This document shows positions 4,049 through 60,308 of a stretch of DNA of 64,000 nt, piece by piece (position 1 is the stretch's first letter; each line of letters starts with the position of its first letter). This stretch comes from Pseudomonas sp. S04. Lineage in GTDB: Bacteria > Pseudomonadota > Gammaproteobacteria > Pseudomonadales > Pseudomonadaceae. The position numbers and the translations under genes were made by a program. The notes below the pieces were generated by a model. It did not search any database. It was given only the letters and a program-made list of their open reading frames with translations, and was not told the origin of the DNA. Where the stretch lies: assembly GCF_009834545.1 (NCBI RefSeq), contig NZ_CP019427.1:3788001-3852000 (forward strand), written 5' to 3'.

Positions 4049-4348
4049 TTTGTTTCTCCAGAATTGGCACAGACCGGTTCATTCTAGCTGCACCGTTCAT
4101 CGCCCCATGGCAGCATGGCGGTTTACCCAGGATCAGGAAGATCATGCTTATTCGACTGACGCAGGTTTCGTCTTCATCGATGAGTGGGAACCCTTGGCCA
4201 GTCATCCGCAGATCCTGGTCCAGACCATGATCTGGCAGGCAAGCCACTGAAATTCACGGTAAAAAACCGGGTTTTCATGTGTTCCCCGGGGGCTCCCCGG
4301 CGTCGCAGTTGTTTACTGCCCGCCCCCTTTTCGTCTGGAGTTCGCCCG
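4049..4348. other. Intergenic region between divergent VOC gene and TonB receptor
   Basis: About 300 bases without a supported gene. It must hold the promoters of both divergent genes. By eye I see no convincing Fur box (GATAATGATAATCATTATC type) and no sigma factor or anti-sigma gene next to the receptor. Confidence 0.4.
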
Positions 4349-6486
4349 ATGCCCGCGTCCAAATCCTTGCCCACTGCATTACTGGGCCTGGCCCTGGCCT
4401 GGCCCTGGCCTGTCCGGCCATGGCCGAGGCGCAGGGCCTGGAATTGGGCCAGGTGCTGATCGGTGCCGAAGAGCGCAGCGGCGAAGACGCCTCGGTGGAA
4501 GAAGCCAAGGCCCGGCTGGCCCAGGTGCCCGGCGGCACTAACGTGGTCGACCTGCGCCGGCCGCTCCAGGGCCGGGTGGCCAGCAACCAGGATGTGTTGG
4601 CCTATCAGCCGGGGATCTATGCCCAGTCCGCGGGCAACGAAGGGGTCAAGATCTCGATCCGTGGCTCGGGGATCAACCGCGCCCCTGGCGCCCATGCCTC
4701 GGGACTGTACGCCATGCTCGACGGCCTGCCTTTGACCGGCCCAGGCGGCACCCCCTATGAACTGCTCGAGCCGCTGTGGCTCGATCACGTGGAAGTGCTG
4801 CGCGGCGCCAACGGTTTCGACCGCGGCGCCCTCGCCCTGGGCGGCGCCATCGACTACGTCAGCCACACCGGCTATGACTCACCGCTGTTGCAGGTGCGCT
4901 ACGGGATCGGCAGCCACGGCTACCAGCAGCGCCAGGTCAGCTCCGGCCAGGTGCTGGGCGACTTCGATTACTACCTGGCCGTGACCGATGCCCGCTCCGA
5001 TGGTTACCAGGATCACACCGCCAGCGACAGCCAGGGGTTCATCGCCAACGTCGGCTACCGCTTCAACCCGAACCTGGAAACCCGCTTCTACCTGCGCTAC
5101 CGCCAGACCGACAACGACCTGGCCGGGCGGGTCAGCAAGTACTCGATCGAGCACGACCCACGGGCCGCCAACCCTGCGTACGTGGCGCGCGACGATCGCC
5201 GCGAGCAACCGGGCAGCACCTTCATCGGCAACAAGACCACCTACTACATCGACGACGATTCGAGCATCCAGACCGGCCTGGTCTACCACGACTACCCGAT
5301 GGACCTGCGCGAAGGACCCAACCGCCTGAAAGTCGCCTACAGCGATGTCAGCGGCACCTTCGACTACAAGCGCCGCGACACCCTCTGGGGCCTGGAAAGC
5401 CAGAGCACCCTGGGCCTGCGCACCACCAAACACCTGCCCAACGCCGGCGCCAGCGAAGAAGTGCGCATCCCCACCGGCAACACCGCAGGCTACGCGCCGG
5501 GCACACCGATGCGCGACTTCACCTACCAGGGTTCGGACTCCGTGCTGCACGCCGGCAACGACCTGGAAATCGCTGACGACCTGTGGCTGACCACCGGCCT
5601 CGCCGCCCTCTACACCCGCCGCGAAAGCGCCGTCACCTACCCCGAGGAAGGCGGCAAGACCAGCCAACACGACTGGGACTACGCCGCCCGTCTGGGCCTG
5701 CGCTACCAGTTGACGCCCGGCGTGCAAGTGTTCGGCAACCTCAGCCGCTCGGTGGAAGCACCCCACCCCTGGTCGCTGATCTACAGCTCGAACATTCGTT
5801 TCCCGCAAGGCAGCGGTCCCGCCAGCGGCACCCAGCGCGACCCGATCGAACTGCAAAACCAGACTGCCACCACCCTCGAACTCGGCGGACGCGGCGATGC
5901 CGTCCTCGGACAATGGAGCCTGTCCTGGTACTACGCCCAGGTCCGCCATGAACTGCTCTCCGTCCTGCCGGACGCCAACACCGTCACCCCCTACGAACTC
6001 AACGCCAGCCCCACCGTGCACCAGGGCGTGGAAGCCAGCCTGCAAAGCACCCTGTGGGCATCGCCAACCGGTGAACAACTGAGCCTGCGCCAGAGCTACA
6101 CCTTCAGCGACTTCCACTACCGCGACGACGACCACTTCGACGATAACCGCCTACCCGGCCTGCCAATGCACTACTACCAAGGCGAACTGCGCTACGACTG
6201 GCCCCTGGGCTTCTTCGCCGCAATCAACAGCCAACTGGTCTCCAAAGTCGCCGTCGACTACGCCAACAGCGAATACGCCGACCCCTACGCCCTCTTCGGC
6301 GCCACCCTGGGCTACAACGCCCCGAAGGGCGACTGGCAAACCTGGCTGGACCTGCGCAATTTGACGGATAAACGGTACGCGGCGACGGTTACGCCGGGGT
6401 ATGACGATAGGGGGTTGGATGCAGCACGGTCGACGCCTGGGGAAGGGTTTGGGGTTTATGCGGGGGTTTCTTGGAGTTTGCGGTGA
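4349..6486 (+). CDS. TonB-dependent receptor, frameshifted in the signal peptide by an 11-bp tandem duplication
   Basis: Outer-membrane TonB-dependent receptor (siderophore or metal-chelate class): N-terminal plug with LAYQPGIYAQSAGNEGVKIS and VEVLRGANGFDRGALALGGA, then a long beta-barrel. The natural start is ATG 4349, eight bases after TGGAG, and it opens a good signal peptide (MPASKSLPTALLGLALA). That frame runs into TGA at 4459, while the receptor body is read in the next frame, open from a GTG at 4279 that would give no complete signal peptide. The cause is visible: GGCCTGGCCCT occurs twice in tandem (4385-4395, 4396-4406). Removing one copy restores a 708-residue protein starting ...LALACPAMAEAQG. 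As written the receptor is probably off, or the extra unit is an assembly error. The last codons read VSWSLR rather than the usual terminal Phe. Confidence 0.85.
4385..4412 (+). repeat. 11-bp tandem repeat (2.5 copies) in signal-peptide coding region
   Basis: Units GGCCTGGCCCT at 4385-4395 and 4396-4406, then the partial GGCCTG at 4407-4412. Eleven is not a multiple of three, so copy number decides the reading frame: 1 or 4 copies join the start to the receptor body, 2 or 3 do not. Confidence 0.9.
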
Positions 6487-22190: not shown

Positions 22191-23348
22191 TCAAGGCGTC
22201 TGCCCGCTGCGTTGCAGGGCCGCCAACTGCACGGCCATGTCCTGGTCGGTATCGGCGAAACGCTGGGCGATCTCCTGGAACTGTTCACAACAGGCCAGGA
22301 AGGCATCGCAGATGTCCGGGTCGAAGTGGCTGCCGCGCCCCTGAGTGATGATCTCGACAGCCTGCTCATGGGGCATCCCCGCCTTATACACACGCCGGCT
22401 TATAAGCGCGTCATAGACGTCGGCCACCGCCATCAACCGCGCGCTGATGGGGATAGCGTCCGCCACCAGCCCCTGGGGGTAACCGCTGCCATCCCATTTT
22501 TCCTGGTGGCTGTAGGCGATCTCCTTGGCCAGGCTGAGGAACTCGGCGCGTATACCCAACTGGTCCTCGGCGCGCTGGATGGCGTCACGCCCAAGGGTGG
22601 TGTGGCTCTTCATGATCTCGAATTCCTCTGCGCTAAAGCGTCCCGGCTTGAGCAGGATATGGTCGGGAATGCCGACCTTGCCGATGTCGTGCAGGGGCGC
22701 CGACTTGAACAGCAACTCGATGGTCGCCACGCTGAGAAAGTGCCGGAAACGCGGGTGATCCTGCAGATGTTCGGCCAGCACCTTGACGTAGTGCTGGGTG
22801 CGGCGGATGTGGTTGCCGGTTTCGTTGTCGCGCGTCTCCGCCAGGGAGGCCATGGCCTGGATCGCCACATCCTGGATAGCGACCACCTCGCGGGTGCGAC
22901 GCTGCACTTCCTGTTCGAGGTAGTCGTTGTGATCACGCAGGAAGTCGGCCGCCGCCTTCAGCTTGAGCTGGGTGTCGACCCGCGCCAGCACCAGTGCCGG
23001 CCTGATCGGCTTGGTGATGTAGTCGACCGCGCCCAGTTCCAGGCCATGGATCTCGTCCTCGGTGCCGGCCATGGCGGTGAGGAAAATGATCGGAATTTCG
23101 CGGGTATGAGGATCGTCCTTGAGTCGCCTGGCCACTTCATGCCCGGACAGCCCAGGCATCATCACGTCCAGCAGGATCAAGTCCGGCAGCGAGTCGCCCT
23201 GGAGCAGGCGCAAGGCTTTTTCCCCGCTATTGGCGACCTTGACCCGGTAGCGATCCTTGAGCAGGTCGGTCATCAGCAACAGGTTATCGGGCGTGTCGTC
23301 GACCACCAGCAAGGTCGCACGGGTGTAATGACTCGGTTGGCTATTCAT
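22191..23348 (-). CDS. Response regulator with HD-GYP domain (c-di-GMP phosphodiesterase)
   Basis: 385-residue two-domain regulator of the RpfG type. The receiver domain (about 12-130) has the acidic pair in VVDDTPDN and Asp61 in LILLDVMMPGLSG. The C-terminal HD-GYP domain has HIRRTQHYVKVLAEHL, the HD pair in PLHDIGKVGIPD and GSGYPQGL for the GYP motif, so the full signature needed for hydrolysis of cyclic di-GMP is present. A helical linker joins them. It is the first gene of a two-gene minus-strand operon with the giant hybrid kinase; output would be lower c-di-GMP when the relay is active. Start at ATG 23348. Confidence 0.94.
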   Translation of the reverse strand: MNSQPSHYTRATLLVVDDTPDNLLLMTDLLKDRYRVKVANSGEKALRLLQGDSLPDLILLDVMMPGLSGHEVARRLKDDPHTREIPIIFLTAMAGTEDEIHGLELGAVDYITKPIRPALVLARVDTQLKLKAAADFLRDHNDYLEQEVQRRTREVVAIQDVAIQAMASLAETRDNETGNHIRRTQHYVKVLAEHLQDHPRFRHFLSVATIELLFKSAPLHDIGKVGIPDHILLKPGRFSAEEFEIMKSHTTLGRDAIQRAEDQLGIRAEFLSLAKEIAYSHQEKWDGSGYPQGLVADAIPISARLMAVADVYDALISRRVYKAGMPHEQAVEIITQGRGSHFDPDICDAFLACCEQFQEIAQRFADTDQDMAVQLAALQRSGQTP

Positions 23349-30468: not shown

Positions 30469-30849
30469 TCAGGCCTTGGCGGCCATCGCGGTGACTTCCA
30501 CACGCATCCCTTCAACCGCCAGGGCGGCCACGCCCACGGCGGCGCGGACTGGCCATGGCTTGGCGAAGAAGCGCTGGTACACCTGGTTGAAGGCGGCGCG
30601 GTCGGCCATGTCGGTGAGGTAGATGGTCAGGTGCAGCACCCGGTCCATGGAACTGCCGGCCTTCTCCAGCGCGACTTTCAGCGCCTGCAAGGTGCACTCG
30701 CTCTGCAACTCGATATCACCCAGCTCCAGGCTGCCGTCGGCGCGAGTAGGAATCTGGGTGGAAACCAGCAGGCCGGCGAAACCGGCAACGTCGGAAGAGA
30801 TCGAATCGGCGTCCGGATCGGGGATGAAGGTCAGGTCTTGATTAGCCAT
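30469..30849 (-). CDS. RidA family enamine/imine deaminase-like protein
   Basis: 126-residue protein of the RidA/YjgF/YER057c family, small trimeric cytoplasmic proteins that hydrolyse reactive enamine/imine intermediates of amino-acid metabolism. VAGFAGLLVSTQIPTRADGSLE, QALKVALEKAGSSMDRVLHLTIYLTDM and KPWPVRAAVGVAALAVEGMRVEVTAMA are typical. The catalytic Arg of archetypal RidA (S-R-A-A-V-G-V / R105 region) is matched by VRAAVGVAAL, where Arg is retained. The N-terminal segment departs from RidA itself, so this is a paralogue (Rid2/3-like). Single gene. Confidence 0.88.
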   Translation of the reverse strand: MANQDLTFIPDPDADSISSDVAGFAGLLVSTQIPTRADGSLELGDIELQSECTLQALKVALEKAGSSMDRVLHLTIYLTDMADRAAFNQVYQRFFAKPWPVRAAVGVAALAVEGMRVEVTAMAAKA

Positions 30850-31080: not shown

Positions 31081-31173
31081 GCAGATGTAGCGACGAGTGC
31101 TGGGCACTCACTTGCTGAACCCTTGCACGACTGACGACCCGGTAAAGGCCAGTGCAAGAATGCGCGGAAATTT

Positions 31174-31219
31174 ACCAAGTTTGTTCGAGCCTGGGAAGCT
31201 TTTTTTTAACAAATTTGTT
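31174..31219 (+). promoter_or_regulatory. Paired operator-like palindromes before the GS-like gene
   Basis: AACAAATTTGTT at 31208-31219 is a perfect 12-bp palindrome. ACCAAGTTTGTT at 31174-31185 matches it at 10 of 12 positions. The two are exactly 34 bases apart, about three helical turns, so a regulator could bind both on one DNA face. The remaining intergenic DNA (31081-31436) shows nothing else I recognise. Confidence 0.55.
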
Positions 31220-31436
31220 TGAAAACAGCTACTTGCTCATAAGTAATGGCCATGAGCGGCGTTCCCGGGCAGTTTTTTCCAGCTTTTGCTCGGCCAGACT
31301 TGCGCTTGGCGACAGTGAGCTAAGCTTTGAGCAGCTCATTGCACACGATGCTCATGCTGCAGGTTTTGGGGTTTTCTGGAGAGCGTCTGCAACGACTGAT
31401 CAGACTGCCCTCCTCCTTGCCGCAGGATTTGCCGTG

Positions 31437-32810
31437 ATGACCGAGCCCCTCCTAAGCTTCGAAGCACTCAAGCGCGCCGCTGCCAATGGCGAAATCGATA
31501 CCGTGCTGGTGTGCATGGTCGACATGCAGGGGCGCCTGGTGGGCAAGCGCTTCCAGGTCGAGTTTTTCATCGACAGCGGTCACGAAGAAACCCACTGCTG
31601 CAATTACCTGTTGGCCGACGACATCGACATGGAGCCGGTGCCCGGGTACGCGGCCGCCAGCTGGAGCAAAGGCTACGGCGACTTTGTGCTCAAGCCCGAC
31701 ATGAGCACCCTGCGCCGCGTGCCGTGGCTGGAATGCACGGCCCTGGTGCTGTGCGACGTACTCGACCATCACCACCGCCAGGACCTGCCCCACAGCCCGC
31801 GGGCGATCCTCAAGAAACAGGTCGAACGCCTGCGCCAACGCGGCTACACCGGCATGTTCGCCTCGGAACTGGAGTTCTACCTGTTCGACGAGAGCTACGA
31901 GGCCATCCACCAGCGCAACTACCACCAGCCAAAAACCGCCGGGCACTACATCGAGGACTACAACATCCTGCAGACCACCCGCGAGGAACCGGTACTGCGG
32001 GCGATCCGCAAGCACCTGCAGGCCTCCGGCATTCCCGTGGAGAACTCCAAGGGTGAATGGGGCCCGGGGCAGGAAGAGATCAACATCCGCTACGCCGATG
32101 CCCTGACCATGGCCGACCACCACGTCATCATCAAGCACGCCTGCAAGGAGATCGCCCAACTGCAAGGCAAGGCGATCACCTTCATGGCCAAGTGGCGCTA
32201 CGACGCCGCCGGCTCCAGCAGCCACATCCACAATTCGCTGTGGGACAAAAACGGCAAGAAGCCGCTGTTCTTCGAAGCCAAGGCCGAGTTCGGCATGTCA
32301 AAACTGATGCGTGCCTGGGTGGCCGGGCAGCTCAAGTACGCCAACGACATCACCTGTTTTCTTGCGCCCTACATCAACTCCTATAAGCGCTTCCAGGCCG
32401 GCACCTTTGCGCCCACGCGTGCCGTCTGGAGCCTGGACAACCGTACCGCCGGCTTTCGCCTGTGCGCCGAGGGCAGCAAATCCATCCGTATCGAATGCCG
32501 GATCGGCGGCGCCGACCTCAATCCCTACCTGGCCTTCGCCGCCCTGATCGCCGCAGGCCTGGCCGGGATCGACGAGCAGCTCGAGCTGGCCGCGCCCTTC
32601 GAGGGCGATGCCTATGTCGACAGTCATTTGCCGGAAGTCTCCAAGACCCTGCGCGAGGCCTGCGCCGCGCTCAAGGGCTCGGGCATGTTGCGCGAAGCGT
32701 TCGGTGACGACGTGATCGACCATTACGTGCACACCGCCGAATGGGAGCAGAAAGAGTACGACCGGCGCATTACCGACTGGGAATTGCAGCGCGGCTTCGA
32801 GCGCTATTGA
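31437..32810 (+). CDS. Glutamine-synthetase-like gamma-glutamyl-amine ligase
   Basis: 457-residue enzyme of the glutamine synthetase superfamily, PuuA/GlnA4-like rather than housekeeping GlnA. It has the N-terminal beta-grasp domain, the metal-binding ASELEFYLFDESYE, ENSKGEWGPGQEEINIRYADAL, KWRYDAAGSSSHIHNSLWD and the C-terminal IECRIGGADLNPYLAFAALIAAG. The adenylylation-site tail of GlnA is absent. Such enzymes join glutamate to an amine using ATP, the first step of several amine catabolic routes. ATG 31437 is used; the longer upstream frame runs through the operator-like sites. It is followed closely by aldehyde and alcohol dehydrogenases and an APC permease (spacings 7, 3 and 146 bases), so the substrate is probably an amine or amino alcohol. 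Confidence 0.88.
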   Translation: MTEPLLSFEALKRAAANGEIDTVLVCMVDMQGRLVGKRFQVEFFIDSGHEETHCCNYLLADDIDMEPVPGYAAASWSKGYGDFVLKPDMSTLRRVPWLECTALVLCDVLDHHHRQDLPHSPRAILKKQVERLRQRGYTGMFASELEFYLFDESYEAIHQRNYHQPKTAGHYIEDYNILQTTREEPVLRAIRKHLQASGIPVENSKGEWGPGQEEINIRYADALTMADHHVIIKHACKEIAQLQGKAITFMAKWRYDAAGSSSHIHNSLWDKNGKKPLFFEAKAEFGMSKLMRAWVAGQLKYANDITCFLAPYINSYKRFQAGTFAPTRAVWSLDNRTAGFRLCAEGSKSIRIECRIGGADLNPYLAFAALIAAGLAGIDEQLELAAPFEGDAYVDSHLPEVSKTLREACAALKGSGMLREAFGDDVIDHYVHTAEWEQKEYDRRITDWELQRGFERY

Positions 32811-43595: not shown

Positions 43596-43920
43596 AGGCA
43601 TAGGTATCTACACAACTGTGGTGCGACCAGGATGTTGGATTAGACCGAGTACATATCCATTTTTGCGGTAACGGCCACCTATGGTTCCGCTTTTACAGCG
43701 GCTCACTTTTGGAGGAGCCCAAAAGTAAGCAAAAGGCTCTTGCCCCACCACTTGGCACCTCGCTTAGGCTCGGTGTTCCCTCACTCCGGCTTGAATCCGT
43801 GGGCCGCCGCCACGCGCCATCCATGGCGCGGGGCGGCTAACCCGGCGTCCTGCCGGGTTACCCACGGCTTCAAGCCTGCGTTCGGCCAGCGTGGTTAACG
43901 GGGCGCCCAGGATCAAAAGC

Positions 43921-43986
<66 letters not shown>

Positions 43987-44260
43987 AAAAGATTGCTGAC
44001 TTCGTCAGCGTCTTGGGAAGTAGAAGCCACACCGCGCATGCTCTAGCGATCAGGTCGGCTTTTAGGCCGCCTCGCTTTGTTTTTGATCCTGGGCGCCCCG
44101 TTAACCACGCTGGCCGTACTTCGATATTGATTTGGGGGGTAAACCGGCAGGACGCCGGTTTAGCCGCACTGGGCCAGGGAGGGCCCATTGCGGCGGCCCC
44201 CCAAATCAATGTCGGAGTACGGGCATGCCGAGCCTAAGCGAGGCACCGAGTGGTGGGGTA

Positions 44261-54629: not shown

Positions 54630-54926
54630 TTACTGCGACATGGCGTCTTTTTTCATGGCGTCTTTGCCCATTGCGTCCTTGGACATCGAGCCCTTGCTCA
54701 TTGCATCTTTGCTCATTGCATCCTTGCCCATAGCGTCTTTGCTCATTGCATCCTTGGACATCGAGTCCTTGCTCATGGCGTCTTTACTCATCGCGCCTTT
54801 ACTCATCGCGTCTTTGCTCATTGCATCTTTGGACATGGTGTCCTTGCCCATGGTGTCAGCGGCATACACGCTGGCGGCGCCTAGTGCCAGGCACATGGAC
54901 AGGACTGCAGTGGTGATCTTGTTCAT
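54630..54926 (-). CDS. MXKDX pentapeptide-repeat exported protein
   Basis: 98-residue exported protein. Signal peptide 1-22 (MNKITTAVLSMCLALGAASVYA), then 14 tandem pentapeptides of the form M-[SGK]-K-[DG]-[ATS] and a terminal MSQ. This is the family annotated as pentapeptide MXKDX repeat proteins. It is encoded by 15-bp repeats, so unit number can change by recombination. Acid-stress or envelope role has been suggested for relatives; nothing here shows it. Met-rich spacing every five residues could bind metal or present methionines for oxidation. Confidence 0.9.
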   Translation of the reverse strand: MNKITTAVLSMCLALGAASVYAADTMGKDTMSKDAMSKDAMSKGAMSKDAMSKDSMSKDAMSKDAMGKDAMSKDAMSKGSMSKDAMGKDAMKKDAMSQ

Positions 54927-59789: not shown

Positions 59790-59823
59790 GGGGCGCAGCC
59801 ATTGAGGCAGATGGCTTGCTCGC

Positions 59824-60281
59824 GATGAGCTGGAGAACGCCGCGGGTATCCTGAATGTACGTGTAATCGTTGACGACCATCGCGAGCAAGCTCGCTCCTA
59901 CAAGGGCTGCTGTCGCTCACAGTTTTGTGTTGTGGCAGCTGGTTTGTCAGTGAAGAATCGCAACCGGCGATACACCTGTGGGAGCGAGCCTGCTCGCGAT
60001 GAGCTGGAGAGCGCCGCGGGTATCCTGAATGTACGTGTAATCGTTGACGACCATCGCGAGCAAGCTCGCTCCTACAAGGGCTGCTGTCGCTCACAGTTTT
60101 GTGTTGTGGCAGCTGGTTTGTCAGTGAAGAATCGCAACCGGCGATACACCTGTGGGAGCGAGCCTGCTCGCGATGAGCTGGAGAGCGCTGCGGGCATCCT
60201 GAATGTACGTGTAATCGTTGACGACCATCGCGAGCAAGCTCGCTCCCACAGGGGTTGCTGTCGCTCACAGTTTTGTGTTGT
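59824..60281. repeat. 174-bp REP-bearing tandem array (about 2.6 copies)
   Basis: Units start at 59824, 59998 and 60172, exactly 174 bases apart, with only a few substitutions (the third copy is cut after TTTTGTGTTGTG). Each contains an inverted REP pair: GAGCAAGCTCGCTCC in the first half and GTGGGAGCGAGCCTGCTCGCGAT at the junction. 174 = 3 x 58, which leaves long artefactual open frames on both strands. No gene in 59790-60308. Confidence 0.9.
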
Positions 60282-60308
60282 GAACACCGTCATTGTGGGG
60301 TTTGCTGG

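Follow-up and report, generated by a model that had tools for sequence, protein, structure and literature searches.

An 11-bp tandem duplication and the probable recent knockout of a TonB-dependent receptor gene in Pseudomonas sp. S04

Introduction

Why does the gene of an otherwise intact surface receptor start in one reading frame and continue in another? The question is raised by a stretch of 64,000 nucleotides from Pseudomonas sp. S04 (contig NZ_CP019427.1, positions 3,788,001 to 3,852,000), hereafter the window, in which an 11-bp tandem repeat lies inside the signal peptide region of a TonB-dependent receptor gene. An earlier note, made from the sequence alone, proposed a possible phase-variable receptor and named an assembly error as the alternative. 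The known contingency loci have longer tracts of many units, which vary among strains. In part of a review on mutation bias (PMC10710837), contingency loci are described as homopolymers or tandem repeats with high-rate reversible indels, and an excerpt of another source treats slipped-strand mispairing in general terms (PMC1574311). In this study, the repeat, its counterparts in related genomes and the state of the receptor body were compared. We believe, with a probability of about 0.7, that the strain carries a recent knockout of the receptor by a spontaneous 11-bp duplication, possibly revertible.

Results

Reading frames of the receptor gene

The sequence TGGAG (4336-4340, forward strand), read as the ribosome-binding site, lies eight bases 5' of ATG 4349. 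This ATG opens a typical signal peptide, MPASKSLPTALLGLALA..., and the frame then continues as nonsense to TGA 4457-4459. The whole natural-start frame (4349..4459, forward strand) has 36 codons and forms the tail of the open reading frame 4184..4459. The receptor body (4426-6486, forward strand) is in another frame, with 686 codons and a stop at 6486, and contains no internal stop or frameshift. Pfam matches the body to the plug (PF07715, E 8.7e-11) and the beta-barrel (PF00593, E 4.4e-28), the two domains expected of a TonB-dependent receptor. Such a receptor should also have an export signal that shares the frame of its body, and none was recognised in the window. The earlier note had reported the spacing of TGGAG, the stop ending at 4459 and the body in a second frame, and all three were found again.

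The body frame has GTG 4279, TTG 4309 and ATG 4420 ahead of the domains, and the gene might still work through one of these starts, through frameshifting or through re-initiation. The three starts were judged unfit for lack of a ribosome site or an export signal: no clear ribosome site stands in the 20 bases before any of them, ATG 4420 and later starts give no signal peptide, and GTG 4279 gives a 49-residue leader that resembles the native signal in its last part only. The start region around ATG 4349, with its ribosome site, is also common to the relatives. In 20 aligned leaders, the window's among them, GGAG never varies, and the ATG is intact in every row but one, which is gapped there. 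With the conserved leader element CATGTG 4276-4281 and CGTCGCA 4301-4307 (4276..4307, forward strand), likely a promoter or control region, this conservation favours ATG 4349 as the start that is really used. We therefore regard such a rescue of the gene as scarcely credible.

The leader as a whole (4255-4351) is strongly conserved in the 20 aligned leaders, with TGTG and CGTCGCA invariant, and might serve as a promoter of an unusual kind or as a site for a regulator. By contrast, matches to four neighbouring genes of the window were confined to between 0 and 6 of the 80 named loci. Rfam at gathering thresholds found nothing in the receptor leader.

The 11-bp repeat and its rarity

Tandem Repeats Finder reported the tract at 4385-4412 (forward strand) with a period of 11, 2.5 copies and a 100% match, in agreement with the earlier note; the unit is GGCCTGGCCCT. 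The 17-mer GGCCTGGCCCTGGCCTG was found in the 6.1-Mb genome at this site only, in two overlapping matches. To gauge the rarity of such tracts, we counted perfect tandem repeats that have a period of 7-30, two copies or more and a run of 15 or more bases. None turned up in 10 copies of the window simulated by a first-order Markov model. A sample of 464 kb from the genome itself, which joined 20 stretches of 20 kb to the window and included 7.5 kb of masked N, contained four. They are the tract at 4385-4412, the window's hexamer array (43930-43984) and two arrays outside the window, one of period 13 and one, adjoining a masked stretch, of period 14. As the Markov copies gave none and the genome sample just four, the array at 4385-4412 is beyond chance and unusual inside a gene.

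Of the other repeats, the hexamer array, with the unit AGCCAG (43918-43984), lies between two TwoAYGGAY Rfam matches on opposite strands (43781-43883, reverse; 44108-44228, forward). A 174-bp unit occurs in 2.7 copies with a 97% match at 59817-60282, and nested 15-, 45- and 75-bp repeats occupy 54639-54857 of the window. The array of period 13, at C1:1311348-1311392 (L238:11348-11392), has its 13-bp unit in about 3.5 perfect copies; it is probably intergenic because it starts past a 339-codon open reading frame and ends before a 69-codon frame on the opposite strand.

The signal peptide region in relatives

A DNA search of 398 Pseudomonas genomes gave matches in 303, and the best 84 loci were read, with the window's own excluded. 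From a scan of named genomes, the best 80 of 358 relatives were read. The two sets overlap, and the 164 loci represent 128 distinct sequences. A signal peptide of the form MPSPKSLPTALLGLALACPAMA stands in frame directly before the body in 84/84 loci of the genus search, and all 80 named loci also have an in-frame signal peptide. A strict signal-peptide pattern, designed to reject the window, was matched by 163 of the 164 related loci. The sole exception, L004 (MPSPKSLPAAMLGLALACPAMA), was seen to be in frame on inspection by eye.

The nearest relative among the matches listed was P. kielensis MBT-1, whose receptor body is identical to that of the window at 664 of 686 residues. Its tract is the same as the window's, with 1.5 units (GGCCTGGCCCTGGCCTG) in place of 2.5; in the BLAST alignment, the window has an 11-bp insertion at the repeat. 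Most other relatives have a single unit in diverged surroundings. Since the relatives are in frame and P. kielensis has 1.5 units, the aligned loci indicate that the window has the derived state, which arose through one exact 11-bp tandem duplication between two copies of GGCCTG. The claim that the duplication puts the receptor out of frame is thus upheld by one-copy relatives that are in frame. The unit count in homologous loci, which the earlier note had named as a check on its switch, turned up no multi-unit relative; a second 11-bp unit was absent from all 164 related loci read.

The best protein match (P0001) was considered as a second strain of the window's species and rejected, since it agrees with P. 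kielensis at 684/686 residues and with the window at 664/686. The protein matches viewed were 120 cluster representatives of 1771, a form in which strain variants within clusters are hidden.

These comparisons bear directly on an evolved phase-variable (contingency) receptor, in which slipped-strand changes in the number of 11-bp units would switch expression. Several features of the locus fit this explanation. The unit length is no multiple of three, so the gain or loss of a unit alters the reading frame, and the affected protein is a surface receptor, with the tract in its signal peptide and an intact body. A contingency tract should be kept or variable among relatives, and neither was found here: the longest self-match at an offset of 11 is 17 bases in the window and 2-6 bases in 164/164 related loci (five with 6), so that none of them has an expanded tract. 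Many relatives use other third bases in the same leucine and alanine codons, which breaks the repeat there. The tract here has just 2.5 units, whereas known contingency loci have tracts of many. An evolved switch is therefore highly improbable.

Quality of the assembly at the locus

The extra unit could also be an assembly or base-calling error, in which case the receptor would be intact in the living strain, with 1.5 units. All relatives read intact, as this explanation expects, and short GC-rich tandem repeats are generally prone to a wrong consensus. On the other hand, the genome is a single contig of 6,098,669 bases with a completeness of 100, and an exact gain of 11 bp is unlike the usual homopolymer error. 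We compared the window with the P. kielensis contig over aligned blocks no shorter than 1.5 kb, together about 29.6 kb, and counted 40 indels. Five of these fell within 21 paired open reading frames, which served as a proxy for genes and include some antisense frames: three measure 3 bp, one (31367) 1 bp and one 11 bp. The 1-bp indel lies 5' of a shared 458-codon part and does not break the frame there, which leaves the 11-bp indel as the sole frame-breaker. A frameshift was also considered for the unequal pairs 22191-23348, 30469-30849 and 31152-32810 and was rejected. Either the same Pfam domains occur in both members or the part in common has a start codon of its own, so the extra length reflects only a start farther upstream. 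By this indel measure the assembly of the window is clean, which makes a local error less likely; we consider it unlikely.

Constraint on the receptor body

The Nei-Gojobori (NG86) dN/dS of the body between the window and P. kielensis was 0.113. Changes were polarised with four outgroups. Synonymous/nonsynonymous changes numbered 28/11 for the window and 17/9 for P. kielensis, with a further 17/4 (21) assigned to neither branch; the two branches did not differ (Fisher p 0.60). No trace of relaxed selection or decay in the window's body was visible in dN/dS, branch counts or stops. The locus thus has both marks of a recent loss of function, a state derived relative to intact relatives and an undecayed body. 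As the body has not decayed and its constraint is normal, the loss appears recent, perhaps as late as isolation or culture. A gene that is off part of the time would look the same, and an intact body is equally expected of a switching gene; constraint does not separate a knockout from a switch.

Function and genomic context of the receptor

NCBIfam scores for the receptor were far below the cut-off, the best being PqqU with 84.5 bits against 1200. Among solved structures with E up to 0.001, there was one match, 9gbc (E 0.00041), which is weak, so no substrate was inferred. The neighbourhood, taken as far as 3 kb to either side, was compared in the best 80 of 358 named relatives. Of these loci, 2 matched the window's VOC-type gene upstream, 6 the ABC gene and 4 the gene at 2034-2516, and none of the 80 had a match to the ACP phosphodiesterase downstream. 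The neighbouring genes are of no help for the function of the receptor. The next downstream gene is on the opposite strand, and a polar effect is therefore not expected.

With 34 receptor barrel matches in the genome, losing one receptor may cost little. A second TonB receptor, at C1:2212189-2213409 (L220), looks broken, with two TGA codons in its barrel match. A 225-residue piece of it has only distant relatives in P. kielensis, the best by E-value with 32% identity. At C1:2539224-2543117 (reverse strand), two barrel matches each lie in a 1633-codon open frame, as if a single frame held a fusion of two receptors.

Discussion

The data point to a spontaneous 11-bp tandem duplication in the hydrophobic core of the signal peptide that would knock out the receptor gene. 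In P. kielensis, the 6-base repeat GGCCTG is present in copies 11 bases apart. During replication, a strand could slip or re-anneal once between such copies, and the segment would be copied twice. On the P. kielensis contig, repeat pairs of at least 6 bp at offsets of 7-20 occur at 4.8 per kb, and those at offset 11 at 0.26 per kb. A starting repeat of this kind is common, and the duplication needed no special design. The tract would thus resemble a single duplication at microhomology, unlike an old contingency locus. The rarity of the product stands against this explanation, as just four real arrays of its kind were present in the 464 kb.

Translation from the natural start would end after 36 codons. 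Because no start in the body frame gives a recognisable export signal, the receptor should fail to reach the outer membrane. Its loss was perhaps neutral in culture, or may have been favoured by phage or bacteriocin. The duplication has also created an overlap of 17 bases, and from the general behaviour of slippage, precise reversion would be likelier than for most frameshifts. Reversion by slippage is possible. One could go further and suppose a newborn contingency locus, in which a single duplication has just made the repeat flippable by slippage and the strain is a mix of receptor-plus and receptor-minus cells; we hold this to be quite improbable. Of the earlier proposal of a phase-variable receptor, the part that stands is a TonB receptor put out of frame by duplication. 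The switch does not stand, because the tract is neither expanded nor kept in relatives and its 6-bp origin is common.

Known switching systems show the same contrast. The Neisseria receptors HmbR, HpuAB and FetA reportedly undergo repeat-driven switching. Like the present gene, they code for TonB-dependent receptors whose expression is set by repeat length; unlike it, they have homopolymeric or very short units in many copies, and their switching has been shown. Contingency loci in general have longer tracts that vary among strains, whereas the window has 2.5 units in one genome, and the relatives that were read do not vary. The portion of the mutation-bias review (PMC10710837) that deals with contingency loci gives a picture shared by the window, a coding-region tandem repeat in a surface protein with a frame-breaking unit. 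A close parallel is ssp1 of fission yeast (Dan et al. 2021), for which an excerpt of a review (PMC13207564) reports reversible microhomology-mediated tandem duplication. As in the window, short repeats flank a tandem-duplicated coding segment, and a premature stop results. According to the same excerpt, the yeast duplication can collapse back, whereas that of the window is bacterial and was seen once, in an assembly. Among the papers listed by our searches, no title or abstract dealt with tandem-repeat or slipped-strand phase variation of TonB receptors in Pseudomonas or with an 11-bp reversible duplication. Part of one paper (PMC12054119) describes a TonB-receptor gene within a large duplication, not a short one.

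If the knockout by duplication is the true reading, the locus would be a clean case of gene loss by duplication between ordinary 6-bp repeats. It would also advise caution against calling each out-of-frame tandem repeat a switch. If cells of the strain do flip between the two states, the birth of a switching gene could be watched.
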